In this document: positions 5,938-16,106 of the stretch, in pieces
Position numbering within the stretch: the stretch's first letter is position 1
How the letters are laid out: the number at the start of each line of letters is the position of its first letter
IMG/VR virus record: IMGVR_UViG_3300018420_000118
Location: 1 to 23,709 of that record
Direction: 5' to 3' (one strand)
DNA length: 23,709 bases
Source: a virus
Notes under the pieces: model-generated
Database searches by the model: none
What the model was told of the DNA's origin: nothing
The model's input: only the letters and a program-made list of their open reading frames with translations
Made by a program: the position numbers and the translations under genes

Positions 5938-6855
5938 TTAATCACTTTCCTTTGCGGCACTTGTAATGCTTATATCATGATTTTTACGCTGTGTCAATGC
6001 ATAATCTGCACTTGCCAGTGTATTTTTTATGTACGGCTGCACACTCTGTGGGTTAGCATGTCCTGTAACCGACATTATCTGTCCGATACCGACACCTGCC
6101 TCTACCATTTCAGTTGTTCCTGTCCTACGTAAGTCAGATAACCGTAACTCCTTGGGTAATCCTGCTACATCCATTATGTCACGTGCATGTAGAGGAAGTT
6201 TCTGTAACGAGTATGGAATAAACTCACCACGTATGGGGTTTGGTCTTGGTGCAACGTATGGTTGAAATCCAAAGTCTTCATTTTGTTGTACCAACATTTG
6301 GAATAACTCATCTGAGATAGGCAGTGATACTTCAGCCCTTCGCTTTGACTGTTCAATATGCACTGTCTGGTCAACAAGATTGATGCTATCCCATGTGAGC
6401 ATACGCATATCACCTAATCTCTGACACCATTCGTATGCCATCTGTGCTATAAGCCCTATGTTTCGCCATTTAAAGTCGCTGTAGGCGGTATCTAGGAACT
6501 TCTGTACGTCACCCCTACTCCAAACAACCTTGCGCCTCTGTGCGGCTCTTTTGCGAATGTTTGCAAACGGATTTGTTTGTATAAGTTCTTCACGCACACC
6601 GTGATTAAAAACAATACGTGTTACTGAGATGGTATGGTTCGCAAGATGCAATCCTCTCTCACACCAATCGTTGTAGGCTGACTTTGCAATACGTGTTGTA
6701 ATTTTGTCACAGTAAAAGTGACAGAGGGGTTTACCCTCTGCCTCAGTGTTAAGCAGCACGTTGATAAAGTATTTATACTGTGCTTTAGTTTCATCCCTTA
6801 ACTGTTTGAAATCAAAGGAAGAAGTATAGTCATGTACTAGCTTTTGAAGTTTCAT
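5938..6855 (-). CDS. int: tyrosine recombinase / phage integrase
   Basis: 305 residues. An N-terminal SAM-like core-binding domain (about 10-95) precedes the catalytic domain. Catalytic residues in order: Arg146 (YEWCQRLGDMR), Lys171 in the beta hairpin (SKRRAEV), Arg243 in SDLRRTGTTEM, His266 in VTGHANPQ and the nucleophile Tyr275 in QPYIKN. The spacing is normal: 23 residues from Arg to His and nine from His to Tyr. The box II histidine of HxxR is Ser240 here. It would integrate phage DNA at an att site or resolve dimers. It is embedded in the replication arm between DUF932-side genes and the primase. The Shine-Dalgarno site AAGGAGG is near perfect. No tRNA-like attP was found next to it. 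Confidence 0.92.
   Translation of the reverse strand: MKLQKLVHDYTSSFDFKQLRDETKAQYKYFINVLLNTEAEGKPLCHFYCDKITTRIAKSAYNDWCERGLHLANHTISVTRIVFNHGVREELIQTNPFANIRKRAAQRRKVVWSRGDVQKFLDTAYSDFKWRNIGLIAQMAYEWCQRLGDMRMLTWDSINLVDQTVHIEQSKRRAEVSLPISDELFQMLVQQNEDFGFQPYVAPRPNPIRGEFIPYSLQKLPLHARDIMDVAGLPKELRLSDLRRTGTTEMVEAGVGIGQIMSVTGHANPQSVQPYIKNTLASADYALTQRKNHDISITSAAKESD
5969..5997 (-). promoter_or_regulatory. sigma70-type promoter with extended -10 upstream of primase
   Basis: Leftward TTGACA (5997-5992), 17-bp spacer ending TGA, TATAAG (5974-5969). Perfect -35, 5 of 6 in the -10, plus TGn. It lies wholly within the C-terminal codons of the integrase gene. The predicted transcript starts about 30 bases upstream of the primase ATG. 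Confidence 0.72.
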
Positions 6856-11476: not shown

Positions 11477-12181
11477 TTAGCAGTCAATTACAAAACCAGT
11501 GCGGTCATTCTTAGCCTTACCCTTGGCCTTCAGTCCCACGATTACACCTTGTGGGTCAAGAAAGCGCAGGTCATCTTTGTCACCGTCAATGACAGGCAGA
11601 CCCTTGAATGTCTTGGGCAGCTTGCCACGAAATACCACTGCCGCATTGATACCAGTTTCACGCACCGCTGTCAATACCTGCTCTGCATAGTCAGGGTCAG
11701 CCTCAGAATATGACAGGGTTAGGTGATAGTTCTCTGGCATTTTAGCATAAGCACGTTTGACAATCTTTGTGTAATCATAGAACTGTATCTCTGGAAACTG
11801 TTCCATGATACCTGTCTTTTCATACTGAATGTCAGACGTACCGTTCAGACGGACGCAAGGTTTTACGCCCTTTTTTGTGTTGCGCTTGCTGAACCTTGTC
11901 AAGTCCTTGTAAAGCGCATCCATGTAGCCAATACGGTCTGATAGATAGAACACAGTCTTGCGTTCACGTCCACGCTGAACCACGCCCATTTGACCACGCC
12001 CTGCGCTATTGAGGCAACCCTCATGACACTTGGCCTTGTCAGCCAAGGCGCACAGATTATGCACCTTGCCTCTGAACACGGTTTTGTACGGCTTCATGTA
12101 CTGGATGCCAGTCTCATACTCAGAGCCGTCACCCTTGATTGTTTTGGCATTATTGCCAACACCTATAAGATTATAAGTCAT
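11477..12181 (-). CDS. Gp88 (gene product 88)-family phage protein
   Basis: 234 residues. The signature of the family is visible: a cysteine group CALADKAKCHEGCLNSAGRG (about 44-63), followed by VQRGRERKT, an LYKDL helix and VRLNGTSDIQYE (about 109-120). Family members are common in actinophages and plasmids; function is not settled. The Cx7Cx3C spacing plus the downstream RLNGTSD strand resembles a metal- or Fe-S-binding site, which is inference. Start preceded by GGGAGATTGACAG. It is by far the largest gene of the small-gene cluster. Confidence 0.75.
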   Translation of the reverse strand: MTYNLIGVGNNAKTIKGDGSEYETGIQYMKPYKTVFRGKVHNLCALADKAKCHEGCLNSAGRGQMGVVQRGRERKTVFYLSDRIGYMDALYKDLTRFSKRNTKKGVKPCVRLNGTSDIQYEKTGIMEQFPEIQFYDYTKIVKRAYAKMPENYHLTLSYSEADPDYAEQVLTAVRETGINAAVVFRGKLPKTFKGLPVIDGDKDDLRFLDPQGVIVGLKAKGKAKNDRTGFVIDC

Positions 12182-12199
12182 CTGTCAATCTCCCGTTAG

Positions 12200-12223
12200 T
12201 GATGCACTTACTAGGTACAACCC
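12200..12223. repeat. left arm of inverted repeat flanking 12249-12617
   Basis: Reads, on the minus strand, GG(G)TTGTACCTAGTAA(G)TGCA(T)CA. It matches the plus-strand copy at 12660-12683 at 21 of 24 positions. It lies in the leader of the Gp88 gene, between its ribosome-binding site and the candidate promoter at 12224. Confidence 0.6.
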
Positions 12224-12252
12224 ACGTTAGCAGGTTGCACGCCTAGTGTCAA
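12224..12252 (-). promoter_or_regulatory. candidate promoter upstream of Gp88-family gene
   Basis: Leftward TTGACA (12252-12247), 17-bp spacer ending TGC, TAACGT (12229-12224). Perfect -35, poor -10 (3 of 6) but with TGn. It starts in the stop codon of the preceding gene and would give a leader of about 35 bases carrying the inverted-repeat arm. Confidence 0.4.
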
Positions 12253-12617
12253 GCGGCTTGCTTGGAAGCCTTGCGTCCACGAGAAGCGCAACATAAATCC
12301 TTGATGTTTGTAACATCGAAAGAACCCATGTCGAGATTGTGTGGACGCTTTGACAATTCCTTATCAACCGCAGTCAATATCAATTCAAAGCAAGCAATAG
12401 AGTGAGACAAAATACGTCCACCATATTCAGCCTTGAGTTGTCTAGCCGCATGACGTGAAGCCTTGTAAAGTTTCATCTTAGACAGATGAGTCCCTGTCTT
12501 TTTGTGATACTTTTTGGCAACCCGACTAAACTTGAACTGATTACGCTCAGACAAGTTTTGACCAGTTAGACCTGTTGACTGCTTCCAATAAGAAACCACG
12601 AATGATACATTTGCCAT
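12249..12617 (-). CDS. hypothetical basic protein flanked by inverted repeats
   Basis: 122 residues, basic, not recognised. Helical middle (KYHKKTGTHLSKMKLYKASR, then HAARQLKAEYGG) and a C-terminus with a Cys-Cys pair followed by ASRGRKASKQ. The charge fits nucleic-acid binding. ATG at 12617 with GGGAG ahead (GGGAGATTTTCTC). It stands alone: about 70 bases to the next gene downstream and about 150 bases upstream, with repeat arms on both sides. Confidence 0.6.
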   Translation of the reverse strand: MANVSFVVSYWKQSTGLTGQNLSERNQFKFSRVAKKYHKKTGTHLSKMKLYKASRHAARQLKAEYGGRILSHSIACFELILTAVDKELSKRPHNLDMGSFDVTNIKDLCCASRGRKASKQAA

Positions 12618-12659
12618 GAGAAAATCTCCCTTGTGTTGTAGGTTGGCAGGTTAGGCACA

Positions 12660-12683
12660 GGATTGTACCTAGTAAATGCACCA
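12660..12683. repeat. right arm of inverted repeat flanking 12249-12617
   Basis: Plus-strand copy of the TTGTACCTAGTAA(A)TGCA element, inverted relative to 12200-12223, 21 of 24 matches. Lies in the leader of the 122-residue protein gene. Confidence 0.6.
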
Positions 12684-12730
12684 CTATATATGAAGCTGGA
12701 TTTACCCGTTAAGCACCTAGCTGGATGTAA

Positions 12731-12763
12731 GACAAGGCTATCACCTTGTCGGATTTATGTCAA
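12731..12763 (-). promoter_or_regulatory. candidate promoter with hairpin/operator over the -10
   Basis: Leftward TTGACA (12763-12758), 17-bp spacer ending TGA, TAGCCT (12740-12735). A perfect 7-bp inverted repeat, GACAAGG / CCTTGTC (12731-12737 and 12744-12750), covers the -10. The -10 is weak. This could be a promoter with a repressor site over it. A terminator is less likely because no T-run follows. Confidence 0.4.
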
Positions 12764-12769
12764 GTGCTA

Positions 12770-12988
12770 TTAACCCTTAGCGGATTGGCACTTGTCGAAT
12801 ATGCAATCGCTAGGCCTAGGCTTTGCAATCGTACCCTTGATATTCTGACATACCTTGCCCGAATAATTTTCCCAATACCTTGCACGCATTGTGCTAGTGT
12901 GAATTTTGAAGCTGAAGTCTGTGGCATATTTATCACGCACTTCTCTCAGCTTGGCACGCTCGCGCTTGCCTAGTCTAGTTTTTGCCAT
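12770..12988 (-). CDS. hypothetical small basic protein, first gene of the leftward arm
   Basis: 72 residues, basic N-terminal half (AKTRLGKRERAKLREVRDKY), two cysteines in the C-terminal part. Not recognised. The ATG at 12988 is preferred over a much longer frame because AGGGG lies seven bases upstream and the extension has unlikely composition. The leader repeats the GGTAAATCC and GGTGCTT words found near 12690-12712. As the promoter-proximal gene, a regulatory or host-takeover role is possible. Confidence 0.55.
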   Translation of the reverse strand: MAKTRLGKRERAKLREVRDKYATDFSFKIHTSTMRARYWENYSGKVCQNIKGTIAKPRPSDCIFDKCQSAKG

Positions 12989-13238
12989 GGATTTACCCCT
13001 ATAAAAAGCACCACTTGATTTTAGTCCAGACGGATTGCTCCCCTGAGTCAGGTATCCACATAACAGAGTTATCGTATTCAGCCGCAAGGCTATTGTATGC
13101 TTTCTCTGTCGGCTTTGTTGCCGTCTGTTGATGATTGGATTAGAACACAATGGGAAAGAGAAGTAAACACCCAATCTGTAAGCTATTGATTTTATTCAAT
13201 TCTTATATTCCAGCTGGATGATATTCATGTTTTGTTTC

Positions 13239-13258
13239 TGTTTCGTTCCTGTTTCGTT
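13239..13258 (+). repeat. tandem TGTTTCGTT repeat
   Basis: TGTTTCGTT occurs at 13239-13247 and again at 13250-13258, eleven bases apart, about one helical turn, and a degenerate third copy precedes them. A related inverted word (AACGAGAACG) occurs near 13289. Spacing of one turn suggests protein-binding sites on one face of the helix. Confidence 0.5.
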
Positions 13259-13340
13259 TTAGTATTCGCAGCATGGATGAGAACAAAACGAGAACGCTAT
13301 TCGCGTATATATATGGTGTCGATATTTGATAGGGGTATAG

Positions 13341-13384
13341 GCTAACAATGTAGACCGATACTAACAAAGTTAGTCTATGCTAAC
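13341..13384. repeat. operator-like CTAAC/GTTAG cluster
   Basis: Four half-sites: GCTAAC (13341), ACTAAC (13360), its inverse GTTAGT (13369) and GCTAAC (13379). The middle pair forms a perfect ACTAAC-AAA-GTTAGT dyad. Starts are spaced 19, 9 and 10 bases apart, close to one or two helical turns. This looks like a cooperative repressor or activator binding site. Confidence 0.5.
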
Positions 13385-13718
13385 TTTCTTAGCTTTTTCT
13401 TAGCTGGTTTTCTCGATAACTCATATGGTATCAGTTAACGATTGCAGTCTATTTGTTTGTTTTTATTGGTTTTTATTCTGATTTAGTGGCATTTTTTACA
13501 ACTAATGGTAGCAAAACCAAAATCTTTTACAATTCAAGAGGGTACGGCAGGATGCCACCCCCCGCCCCTCTGTTACGTATACACATAAATACACAGATTA
13601 GGAATATTAAGTGTTAACCACAGCGATAACTGTTAATGAGATACATGACTAGCTACACACGGGGTACATGGATATTGCACAAAAAATAGGCAGAAAGATG
13701 TTAAATACATTTTAGGGG

Positions 13719-13747
13719 TTGACAAGTTTCGTAAAATCGGTTATAAT
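13719..13747 (+). promoter_or_regulatory. perfect consensus sigma70 promoter for the rightward arm
   Basis: TTGACA (13719-13724), exactly 17 bp, TATAAT (13742-13747): full match to the consensus with optimal spacing. The predicted start near 13754 leaves an untranslated leader of about 165 bases before the first rightward gene. That leader carries all five CACTTA elements. Confidence 0.9.
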
Positions 13748-13763
13748 TATAGTATAACAAGAA

Positions 13764-13867
13764 CACTTAAAGTGATATCACTTACAAATGTCTTTTACTA
13801 TAATATATAATATCACTTAAATGCATATTACTTTACCTTGTTAAATACACTTACAATGTATCACTTA
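13764..13867. repeat. five CACTTA iterons with a 14-bp palindrome
   Basis: CACTTA starts at 13764, 13779, 13814, 13848 and 13862; spacings 15, 35, 34 and 14 are nearly mirror-symmetric. Copies two, three and five extend to TATCACTTA. A perfect 14-bp palindrome, AAGTGATATCACTT (13770-13783), contains most of copy two. They lie just downstream of the rightward promoter, so a repressor bound here would block early elongation; replication iterons are an alternative. Confidence 0.65.
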
Positions 13868-13920
13868 TAATGATACCTTTGTACTGGTAAAATACGTGCA
13901 AATAAAAAAAGTCCTTGACA

Positions 13921-14136
13921 ATGGCGAAGAAATCAGTAAAACTATACACAGACAATGTACTTGATGCATTCTATGAAGCAATACGTACAAACACATTAGA
14001 CCGCTTACATATACCTCACAGTGATGTATTTTACGTGCGACAGGCAGTTGAGGCACATTATGGGCGGTCATTCTCGTTGAAACATGTAGAAGATGCTATG
14101 AGAGCAGAGGGCTGGAAAGAGCCGAATGAGTTATGA
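13921..14136 (+). CDS. hypothetical small protein, first rightward gene
   Basis: 71 residues, not recognised; begins AKKSVKLYTDNVLDAFYEAIR and has a helical C-terminal half (VRQAVEAHYGRSFSLKHVED) that could be a helix-turn-helix, with a closing GWKEPNEL. A small DNA-binding regulator is a reasonable guess given its first position after the promoter and iterons. ATG at 13921; the only upstream purine run is weak. Overlaps the next gene as ATGA. Confidence 0.6.
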   Translation: MAKKSVKLYTDNVLDAFYEAIRTNTLDRLHIPHSDVFYVRQAVEAHYGRSFSLKHVEDAMRAEGWKEPNEL

Positions 14137-14360
14137 CTTTTACCGCAATGATAATTGCATGTCACGTAGCTAACAATGCAATGTGCATGACAATTACAGA
14201 TAATCGTGGTCCATACAAAACCTCAGAAAGATGCGAGGAACGTATAGAAGAAATGATTGGAGACCTGATTAGCCTATGGACGTATACACGTACTCCTATG
14301 GTATTTAAGTGGACAGGTTGTCTTGACCCATTTGAGCAAAGTAAAGGTACATCTACCTAA
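14133..14360 (+). CDS. hypothetical cysteine-containing small protein
   Basis: 75 residues with four cysteines (around 10, 18, 34 and 63) and the segment MTITDNRGPYKTSERCEERI. I have seen this style of small protein in marine phages but know no function. The even cysteine count could mean disulphides or metal binding. No clear signal peptide. Coupled to both neighbours by ATGA and TAATG overlaps. Confidence 0.6.
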   Translation: MTFTAMIIACHVANNAMCMTITDNRGPYKTSERCEERIEEMIGDLISLWTYTRTPMVFKWTGCLDPFEQSKGTST

Positions 14361-14653
14361 TGGCTATACCTGAACGTGTAAAGAACAAGATGAAGGAAGA
14401 AGGCTTGTCAGGTGTGAACAAGCCAAAGCGTACTCCCAAGCATCCAACCAAGTCACATGCAGTGATGGCATCGGAAGGTGGGAAGTACAAATTTATTCGC
14501 TTTGGTCAACAAGGCGTAAAGGGTGCTGGTAAAAGTCCTACCACAGCGAAGGACAAGGCACGTAAGAAGTCGTATTATGCTAGACATAATGCACAGGGCA
14601 AACCAACGACCAAGCTATCCGCAAAGTATTGGTCACATAAAGTGAAGTGGTAG
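14360..14653 (+). CDS. conserved marine-phage basic protein (RFGQQGVKG)
   Basis: 97 residues, strongly basic. The order LSGVNKPKRTPKHPTKSH, a short strand pair ending in IRFGQQGVKG, then KKSYYARHNAQGK and SAKYWSHKVKW is a pattern widespread in marine phage genomes, including cyanophages. Function unknown; abundance in structural arms suggests a virion or packaging role. Joined to the previous gene by TAATG. Confidence 0.75.
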   Translation: MAIPERVKNKMKEEGLSGVNKPKRTPKHPTKSHAVMASEGGKYKFIRFGQQGVKGAGKSPTTAKDKARKKSYYARHNAQGKPTTKLSAKYWSHKVKW

Positions 14654-14664
14654 GAGACTAACCA

Positions 14665-15666
14665 ATGGCTAAAGAGAAAAGTAAGATGACTCCTAAAGAG
14701 CGTAGGGAACAACTAATTAAAGACCGTGCTGCACGTTTGAAGAGAGATGCAGCAAAGCAAGGTATCACACCTGCAGAACTTGCAAAGAAAAAGAGAGACA
14801 CGTATGTAAAGGTAGTAGGTGGTGCAGCATCTATGCTTCCTATAACACGTATTATTTCTCTTGCTGGTAAAGGTGTAAAGGCTCTGACCGCAGGTGCTAA
14901 AACAACTAAAGCTGCTACAAAGACAACAAAGGCAGCATCCAAAGCAAAGACAGCTACAAAGAAACCTGCAGCTAAAAAACAAACTGCGGCTAAAAAGCCA
15001 GCAGCTAAACCTACATCTAAAGCGGCACAAAAAACTGCAGCAGCTAAACGTACAATGACCAAAGCTGAAGCAGCAGGTCGTGCAGTAGCGGCAGGTGCAG
15101 CAAGAACAAAGGGTGCGGCAACCAGTGCTGCTTCTAAAACACGTGCAGCAGCAAACAGGATGAAGTCACGTGCAACTGCAGCAGCCAAGAAGCCGGGTGT
15201 AGGACAGAGAGCAAGAAATGCAATTCTGGGTGGTGCAGTTACATCTGCAGCACTTAATGTGGCAGACCAATCTCGTAAGTCAGGTGCATCACAAGCAAGC
15301 ACAAGCAAAGCAACTGTAACAGGTCCAAAGTCTCGTCCAAAGCGTAGAACAGGTATGAGTGAAGGTAACACTGTAGCTGGTTCATCAGGTAGAAAGCCAA
15401 GTAGGAATGCACCTAACTTTGGTTTAGGTAAAATGAGAAAAACAGAGGGTAGTTCTGGCAAGCCACAAGCAAGACGTAAAGCACTTGATAAAATGAAAGG
15501 GCCATTAGCTAGTGCTAGAAAAGAATACCCCGTAACTGGACCAAAGAAAAAAACTGAGACCAAACCAGCAATACCAGCAGGTGCAAAGCCGTTTAGAGGT
15601 TCTTATAATAAGAAAACAGAAAAGCTGAAGAACATTGGTGGCAAGACATACGTATTAAAGAGGTAG
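14665..15666 (+). CDS. histone-H1-like Lys/Ala-rich protein
   Basis: 333 residues. An N-terminal helical region (to about 65) leads into a long low-complexity section (about 70-190) of repeated AKKPAAK / TKAASKAK type, like histone H1 tails and bacterial AlgP or Hc1. The C-terminal third is basic and Gly/Ser-rich, carries the tag VTGPKSRPK (around residue 217) which recurs in the gene at 16620, and ends in GKTYVLKR. The composition fits non-specific DNA binding, for example condensing DNA in the head or on the host nucleoid. The large opposite-strand reading frame over it is a mirror of this bias. GGAG lies eight bases before the ATG. Confidence 0.75.
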   Translation: MAKEKSKMTPKERREQLIKDRAARLKRDAAKQGITPAELAKKKRDTYVKVVGGAASMLPITRIISLAGKGVKALTAGAKTTKAATKTTKAASKAKTATKKPAAKKQTAAKKPAAKPTSKAAQKTAAAKRTMTKAEAAGRAVAAGAARTKGAATSAASKTRAAANRMKSRATAAAKKPGVGQRARNAILGGAVTSAALNVADQSRKSGASQASTSKATVTGPKSRPKRRTGMSEGNTVAGSSGRKPSRNAPNFGLGKMRKTEGSSGKPQARRKALDKMKGPLASARKEYPVTGPKKKTETKPAIPAGAKPFRGSYNKKTEKLKNIGGKTYVLKR

Positions 15667-15668
15667 CT

Positions 15669-16106
15669 ATGAACGCAGGTGAAAGAGCAAATCTTCAGGA
15701 AGCTGTCAGAGTATCTCGTGACCCTAACGCTACAAAAGAACAGGTGCAGGAAGCAGGTAGAGTGCAACGGGAACTTCGTAAGAAGTATCCTGACACCTAC
15801 GGTGCTATTCGTGGTGAGATGTTTGAAAATGTAGCAAACATGTCTGAGGGTGGTGACGCAAAAAAGAAGCGTAAAAAAGTGCCAGCTATAGCTATTAGCA
15901 TTGGCATGGTGGACGCACCTAAGAATGGCAAAGGTAAAGCTGCTATGATGCGTGGCGGCATGGCAAATAAAAAGGTACACATGTATGCTGGTGGTGGAGA
16001 TGTAACGGATAACTTAAAACCACTTCCTAAAGGACCAAAAGGTAAAGGTGTAAGAAACCTTCCTGCTTCTGTACAAATGAATATGGGCTTTAAGCCAAAT
16101 AGCTAA
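15669..16106 (+). CDS. hypothetical protein with MRGGMA and AGGGDVTD motifs
   Basis: 145 residues. N-terminal helices (RANLQEAVRVSRDP and VQEAGRVQRELRKKYPDTYG), a lysine-rich linker, then MMRGGMANKKVHMYAGGGDVTDNL and a C-terminal LPASVQMNMGF. The Gly/Met-rich tail is typical of short proteins in marine phage structural regions. It shares an exact 23-bp DNA match with the gene at 16620 (15945-15967 and 16851-16873). Function unknown. Confidence 0.7.
   Translation: MNAGERANLQEAVRVSRDPNATKEQVQEAGRVQRELRKKYPDTYGAIRGEMFENVANMSEGGDAKKKRKKVPAIAISIGMVDAPKNGKGKAAMMRGGMANKKVHMYAGGGDVTDNLKPLPKGPKGKGVRNLPASVQMNMGFKPNS

Follow-up and report, generated by a model that had tools for sequence, protein, structure and literature searches.

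The operators of lambda-type CI and Cro proteins are made up of several near-palindromic sites at fixed spacing within a divergent control region. Autoregulated ribbon-helix-helix (RHH) repressors are small proteins encoded directly downstream of repeated short sites. Replication iterons of plasmids and phages are short sites repeated directly and at even spacing in an AT-rich region, and integrase arm sites resemble paired direct repeats of 10-11 bp. Operator arrays and elongation-blocking sites as such are already known: according to PMC9283540, the stoperators of Cluster A mycobacteriophages (L5, TipsytheTRex) are asymmetric 13-mers spread across the genome, to which a monomer binds.

HMO-2011-type phages are dominant and widespread in the ocean, according to the abstract of PMC9038755. 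A term search of the main text of that paper found no mention of a repressor, promoter or terminator, and the searched literature on HMO-2011 and HMO-2011-type phages, from which many subscription papers are missing, gave no description of the array reported here.

The DNA analysed (the window) is the whole of a 23,709-base virus contig recorded in IMG/VR, with DNA matches to Puniceispirillum phage HMO-2011 and Roseobacter phage CRP-345. Judged by its genes, it is a fragment of an HMO-2011-type phage, a group marked by a DnaJ-like CXXCXGXG insert in DNA polymerase A, a helicase, a primase, a conserved gene order and a structural operon. Pfam matches of its proteins were DNA_pol_A, exonuclease and DnaJ_CXXCXGXG, the last below its own curated cut-off, and the helicase was 75-83% identical to those of HMO-2011, CRP-1 and CRP-345. 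Besides the family A polymerase and the helicase, the window encodes a Cas4-like exonuclease and an integrase, whose gene (5938-6855) lies inside the replication operon without adjoining intergenic space for attP. At the equivalent region of HMO-2011, two gene blocks diverge, with replication genes running rightward and structural genes leftward from ~53.2 kb to 16.9 kb (about 36 kb). The promoter and array described below stand at the head of the structural-gene block, the array in its 5' untranslated leader; in HMO-2011, the densest windows of CAY-N4-RTG and of TAAGTG both lie at 53,150-53,250.

An earlier note on this DNA had described five mirror-spaced CACTTA copies and a 14-bp palindrome below a perfect promoter, and each of these elements was found exactly as described. 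CACTTA occurs on the + strand at 13764, 13779, 13814, 13848 and 13862 (spacings 15, 35, 34 and 14), the palindrome AAGTGATATCACTT at 13770-13783, and TTGACA-17-TATAAT at 13719-13747 as the sole 12/12 promoter match within 12000-16000. The features of the region are as follows; units 1, 2, 3, 5 and 6 were read from the sequence and parsed in register with relatives.

13719..13747, + strand: sigma-70 consensus promoter TTGACA-17-TATAAT (12/12 match)
13764..13774, + strand: unit 1, CACTTAAAGTG
13770..13783, no strand assigned: 14-bp palindrome AAGTGATATCACTT at the junction of units 1 and 2, read from the sequence
13779..13790, + strand: unit 2, CACTTACAAATG
13814..13823, + strand: unit 3, CACTTAAATG
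13826..13836, + strand: possible decayed unit 4, TATTACTTTAC, inferred from relatives with a full second pair
13848..13858, + strand: unit 5, CACTTACAATG
13862..13872, + strand: unit 6, CACTTATAATG
13921..14136, + strand: gene of the 71-aa protein p71, first of the structural operon and candidate binder (open reading frame; conserved family)

The clustering is beyond chance. Five CACTTA within 104 nt were reached in 0/300 dinucleotide shuffles of the whole window (maximum 3), and 5000 shuffles of 13701-13921 alone gave a maximum of 3 CACTTA. When any hexamer of three or more letters was allowed, 60 shuffles never yielded five non-overlapping copies; the maximum of 4 was seen once. CACTTA shows no enrichment in the window as a whole (21 vs 17.9 expected) and stands at background level outside the array, so that the signal is the cluster.

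For comparison with relatives we collected 414 sequences: the window, 400 IMG/VR loci, 4 loci from a genome collection and 9 stretches of named phages. Each collection search contributed the best 80 of 163 to 581 relatives. The p71 gene was found by tblastn in all 414, a usable gene start in 404 (10 were dropped) and at least 450 nt of upstream sequence in 355; since the loci were gathered via p71, this sampling accounts in part for the co-occurrence of p71 and the array. Of the 82 loci in the window group that extend 450 nt or more upstream, 72 had perfect hexamers spaced by 17 nt above the array, and in 5/82 the promoter was absent by the criteria used.

The conserved unit proved to be longer than CACTTA, which is the better-kept half of a 10-11 bp near-palindrome, CACTT-N-AAGTG. 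In 33 representative leaders the dyads CAY-N4-RTG and CAY-N5-RTG occurred 53 and 69 times, compared with 4.2 and 4.0 in 200 shuffles. This enrichment identifies the unit as a near-palindrome, ideally CACTTNAAGTG. The 14-bp palindrome, although present, is only a junction, to which unit 1 contributes its 3' half and unit 2 its 5' half on either side of a 4-nt linker; AAGTGATATCACTT occurs in 4/78 leaders, and linkers are mostly 2-4 nt long (33 representatives).

Units lay 12-15 bp apart within pairs in 16 leaders that had been selected for three parsed pairs. The first pair-to-pair interval was 45-48 bp in 15/16 of them, and the second was 44-48 bp in 13/16 and 62-63 bp in three. The pair parser over-calls the last pair in some leaders and limits linker length, and an unconstrained spacing test was done separately; in the window group it gave peaks (observed/shuffled) at 14 (39/4.2), 34 (24/3.8) and 46 (35/2.6). 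The 15/35/34/14 pattern arises because there are two repeat distances, 12-15 bp in a pair and ~46-48 bp between pairs, and it appears mirror-like since only one clear unit is left of the second pair in the window. Identity between the 16 leaders was 71-80% in the units and 59-63% in the spacers. The sequence and spacing of the units are thus kept among relatives while the bases between them drift more, as the earlier note had proposed to check. It had named free variation of both number and spacing as contrary evidence; spacing was kept, whereas the number of pairs varies and some leaders (e.g. L011) have two pairs only.

Above the promoter, at 13591-13621, the motif GTTAACCAC was present in 37/37 and ACACAGAT(T/C)AGG in 27/37 window-group representatives. 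We take these motifs to resemble DnaA boxes; they could mark an origin or a leftward promoter. Between the conserved upstream block and the promoter, at 13675-13693, many relatives carry a TTGCACAA / AAAAAATAGGC motif or its reverse complement.

Sister clades have different units at the same position, TACTTNAAGTA and AGTTNAACT. De novo dyad counts gave CAC-N5-GTG in the CRP-345/CRP-1 group, TAC-N5-GTA in the CRP-9 and CRP-13 groups, GTT-N-AAC together with AGT-N3-ACT in the CRP-207 group, and GTT-N-AAC only in the CRP-2 group. Spacing peaks near 12-16 were found in all groups, with further peaks at 28-34 and 44-51 in the window, CRP-345/1, CRP-207 and CRP-2 groups. Single peaks (observed/shuffled) were at 14 in the CRP-345/1 group (44/2.5) and the CRP-2 group (33/4.1), at 34 in the CRP-207 group (31/5.3), at 12 in the CRP-9 group (26/7.9) and at 13 in the CRP-13 group (21/2.8). 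The units of the CRP-13 and CRP-9 groups are AT-rich and their totals only modestly exceed shuffles (152 vs 136 and 172 vs 151), so that the spacing peaks are the better evidence there. The units also differ in their placement relative to the promoter. A unit overlaps the promoter in 2/38 window-group representatives. Between the -35 and -10 elements of the gene-nearest promoter, a unit was present in 8/12 CRP-9-group representatives (shuffled 0.38, maximum 3) and in 8/10 CRP-2-group representatives (shuffled 1.49, maximum 5); the corresponding numbers for a unit within this promoter were only 1/10 in the CRP-13 group and 3/16 in the CRP-207 group.

Repeated near-palindromic sites, conserved in sequence and spacing and tied to a promoter, are what characterizes a transcriptional operator array. 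From this sequence evidence we consider it somewhat probable that the array is a double-stranded DNA operator array of a phage-encoded regulator, located in the leader of the ~36-kb structural operon. The earlier note's operator reading is supported in kind by the kept units and spacing and the in-promoter units of two sister clades; lysis-lysogeny control in particular is not supported. The unit would be an odd palindrome of 11 bp, here CACTTNAAGTG, arranged in tandem pairs, and we infer binding of a protein to the units, repression and cooperativity: a dimeric, phage-made DNA-binding protein probably fills the pairs in a cooperative manner and dampens the strong promoter immediately upstream. 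In the window clade, where the sites come after the -10 element, it would block either escape from the promoter or elongation soon afterwards; in the two sister clades with a unit inside the promoter, initiation would be blocked. The most likely binder would be the 71-aa protein that the operon encodes first, which would result in negative autoregulation and timing of the late genes. An array that is found clade-wide, with a code that differs by clade, and that heads the structural operon offers a defined and testable control point with a candidate regulator, in phages and hosts that are in culture.

The isolates point to a phage-made factor. Host strain FZCC0023 is recorded for CRP-1, CRP-2, CRP-13 and CRP-9, yet their units differ; within 400 nt, CRP-1 has five CACTT, CRP-2 six AAGTT-type, CRP-13 five TACTT and CRP-9 seven TACTT units. 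CRP-207, from another host strain, has mixed units. With four isolates on one host strain differing in their units, a host protein is an unlikely binder.

Of the two small proteins suggested earlier as binders, the one encoded at 12770 was found in 2/44 loci of the same group and in none of the other groups, and the one encoded at 13921, p71, is the best candidate. Its gene heads those below the array in the collected clades, and the protein is conserved (67 sequences, 56% mean column identity). The window copy had no match in Pfam or PHROGs and no convincing match among PDB sequences or folds. Its AF2 monomer model (pLDDT 77.6) has helices at residues 13-23, 34-47 and 53-62 and gave no Foldseek match below E 5, and no DNA-binding domain was recognised in the Pfam, PHROGs, PDB-sequence and Foldseek searches. 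An RHH fold, proposed for p71 from its sequence pattern, was dropped after no RHH family match was obtained in Pfam, PHROGs or PDB sequences. At the start of p71, 13915-13923 reads TTGACAATG; some relatives lack the ATG and have TTGACAAAA, which suggests that translation may begin at TTG 13915.

In favour of p71, arrays of these unit types were absent from the equivalent region of four isolates in which p71 was not detected (CRP-3, CRP-235, CRP-212 and CRP-738), although this region may be incomplete because their records are linear. Its phyletic pattern, taken from three genomes vs two, also fits: by inspection of the HMO-2011 ORFs, only an endonuclease gene and p71 are annotated-strand genes with matches in CRP-13, CRP-9 and CRP-207 and none in CRP-3 and CRP-212. 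To sample loci independently of p71, we also took 80 via the gene at 14360, some of which are on contigs already among the earlier loci. The p71 gene was present in 41/80 and absent in 39. Three or more units were found in 30 of the 38 loci with p71 and 320 nt upstream, and of the 24 loci that lacked p71 and extended 1.5 kb or more upstream, 23 showed no promoter matching at 11/12 or above, though operon starts may be further upstream.

The distance between p71 sequences was correlated with that between arrays after controlling for other proteins (partial r 0.17-0.22; 2-20 of 500 permutations). Linkage alone could explain this Mantel signal, which is common to the protein encoded at 12249-12617 (o12249) and exceeded there (partial r 0.28; 0/500). 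This fast-evolving basic protein, whose divergence tracks that of the array, was rejected as the general binder, as its 22 hits are confined to the window group. It counts against p71 that within the window group CACT-type and CATT-type arrays accompany nearly identical p71. The idea that a strand residue of p71 (K/Q) sets the unit was also rejected: in the CRP-207 and CRP-2 groups, members with K have AGTT units as well. Taken together, these sequence comparisons leave p71 as the favoured candidate, and we regard its binding to the array as possible but doubtful. Somewhat less probable still is the wider proposal that p71 founds a new, non-CI-like family of small DNA-binding regulators, which would control the late operon of HMO-2011-type phages with or without an integrase and read clade-specific palindromic site codes (CACTTNAAGTG, TACTTNAAGTA and AGTTNAACT). 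If true, a site code of its own in each clade would keep regulation separate among phages that share one marine host, much as in heteroimmunity, and this within a phage group that ranks among the most abundant of the ocean.

The earlier note had proposed, besides replication iterons, a lysis-lysogeny operator in a phage with an integrase but no recognised CI-like repressor. The latter observation held, as no match to such a repressor was found among the window proteins scanned (two sets of ten). In a tblastn search with the window integrase (E 1e-4), which could miss divergent integrases, integrase-like sequence was detected in nearly all loci of five groups that had sufficient left flank (42/44, 15/15, 8/8, 14/14 and 12/12), whereas the CRP-9 group had it in only 1/6 loci and the CRP-13 group in 0/8; no integrase is annotated in CRP-13 1-50000 or CRP-9 2001-52000. 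Arrays occur in both of the latter groups and are thus not restricted to phages with a detected integrase, which argues against a specific lysogeny operator. The same distribution bears on the proposal that the tyrosine integrase of the phage uses the units as arm-type sites, with attP in this intergenic region. The likeness of the units to paired 10-11 bp repeats and the embedding of the integrase in the replication operon, with no intergenic space beside it, would fit; the arrays of the CRP-9 and CRP-13 groups nevertheless have the same layout, and in CRP-3, for which integration is described in the literature, the single attL primer that could be placed in the genome ends examined lies at 2829, off the divergent region. 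We therefore rejected the integrase as the binder and hold arm sites to be very improbable.

Replication iterons bound by an initiator, with the region serving as origin, are improbable as well, if less so than arm sites. This is the largest AT-rich intergenic region, it lies between divergent gene blocks close to a minimum of the cumulative GC skew, and above the promoter are the conserved motifs that we take for DnaA-box-like. The skew check proposed earlier did reveal a turn near 12-13 kb, but this coincides with the divergence of the gene blocks and is also the turn of transcription direction. Moreover, the units are placed after the promoter, with overlap in two clades, no Rep-type initiator was recognised among the window proteins scanned, and no positive evidence for iterons was found. 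The leader could also act as RNA, its complementary units folding into hairpins (an antiterminator, attenuator or protein-binding RNA) that control the late operon; this is unlikely, though less so than iterons. Unit 1 of L029, L042, L053 and L075 (CACTAAAGGTG) is not self-complementary and pairs with unit 4, partly by G-U; a near-perfect 20-bp stem with G-U pairs joins pair 1 to pair 2 in L029, L042 and L060; and native P1:P2 pairs were more complementary than swapped ones (z 3.8-4.4; 17 leaders). The 41 leaders with three usable pairs supplied 17 to 19 non-redundant ones for the swap tests, L028 and L079 being omitted from the unit test. The U1:U4 signal was gone (z 0.2-0.9) once L029, L042, L053 and L075 as well as L046 were left out, so that complementarity in excess of the repeat similarity depends on a few related leaders. 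Both strands fold alike (mean z -2.66 for minus and -2.30 for plus), the plus strand being more stable in 5/33. RNAalifold on 16 leaders found no conserved structure (best -0.36 kcal/mol), Rfam had no match in 13200-14200, and two sister clades have units above the -10 element. The hairpin model was dropped, with neither compensatory pairing nor strand preference nor an Rfam match to support a structured RNA. These negative RNA tests and the in-promoter units of two clades make a DNA operator array the best reading.

As a candidate operator array, the locus shares traits with four of the systems introduced above. It is like iterons in its directly repeated, evenly spaced short sites in an AT-rich region, but its units are near-palindromic, paired 12-15 bp apart and tied to a promoter, and no initiator gene was recognised. 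As with autoregulated RHH repressors, a small protein, p71, is encoded directly downstream of repeated short sites; p71 differs in having no sequence match to that family and a three-helix monomer model without the strand. Cluster A operators and stoperators are likewise many short repressor sites, some of them downstream of promoters, where they stop elongation; the sites here are, unlike stoperators, near-palindromes that sit together in a single leader, and a repressor of that kind was not recognised. With the lambda CI/Cro operators the array has in common several near-palindromic sites at fixed spacing in a divergent control region. It differs from them in that no CI/Cro homologue was recognised among the window proteins scanned, and in its architecture of 11-bp units in up to three pairs with a period of ~47 bp, placed downstream of the promoter in the window clade.
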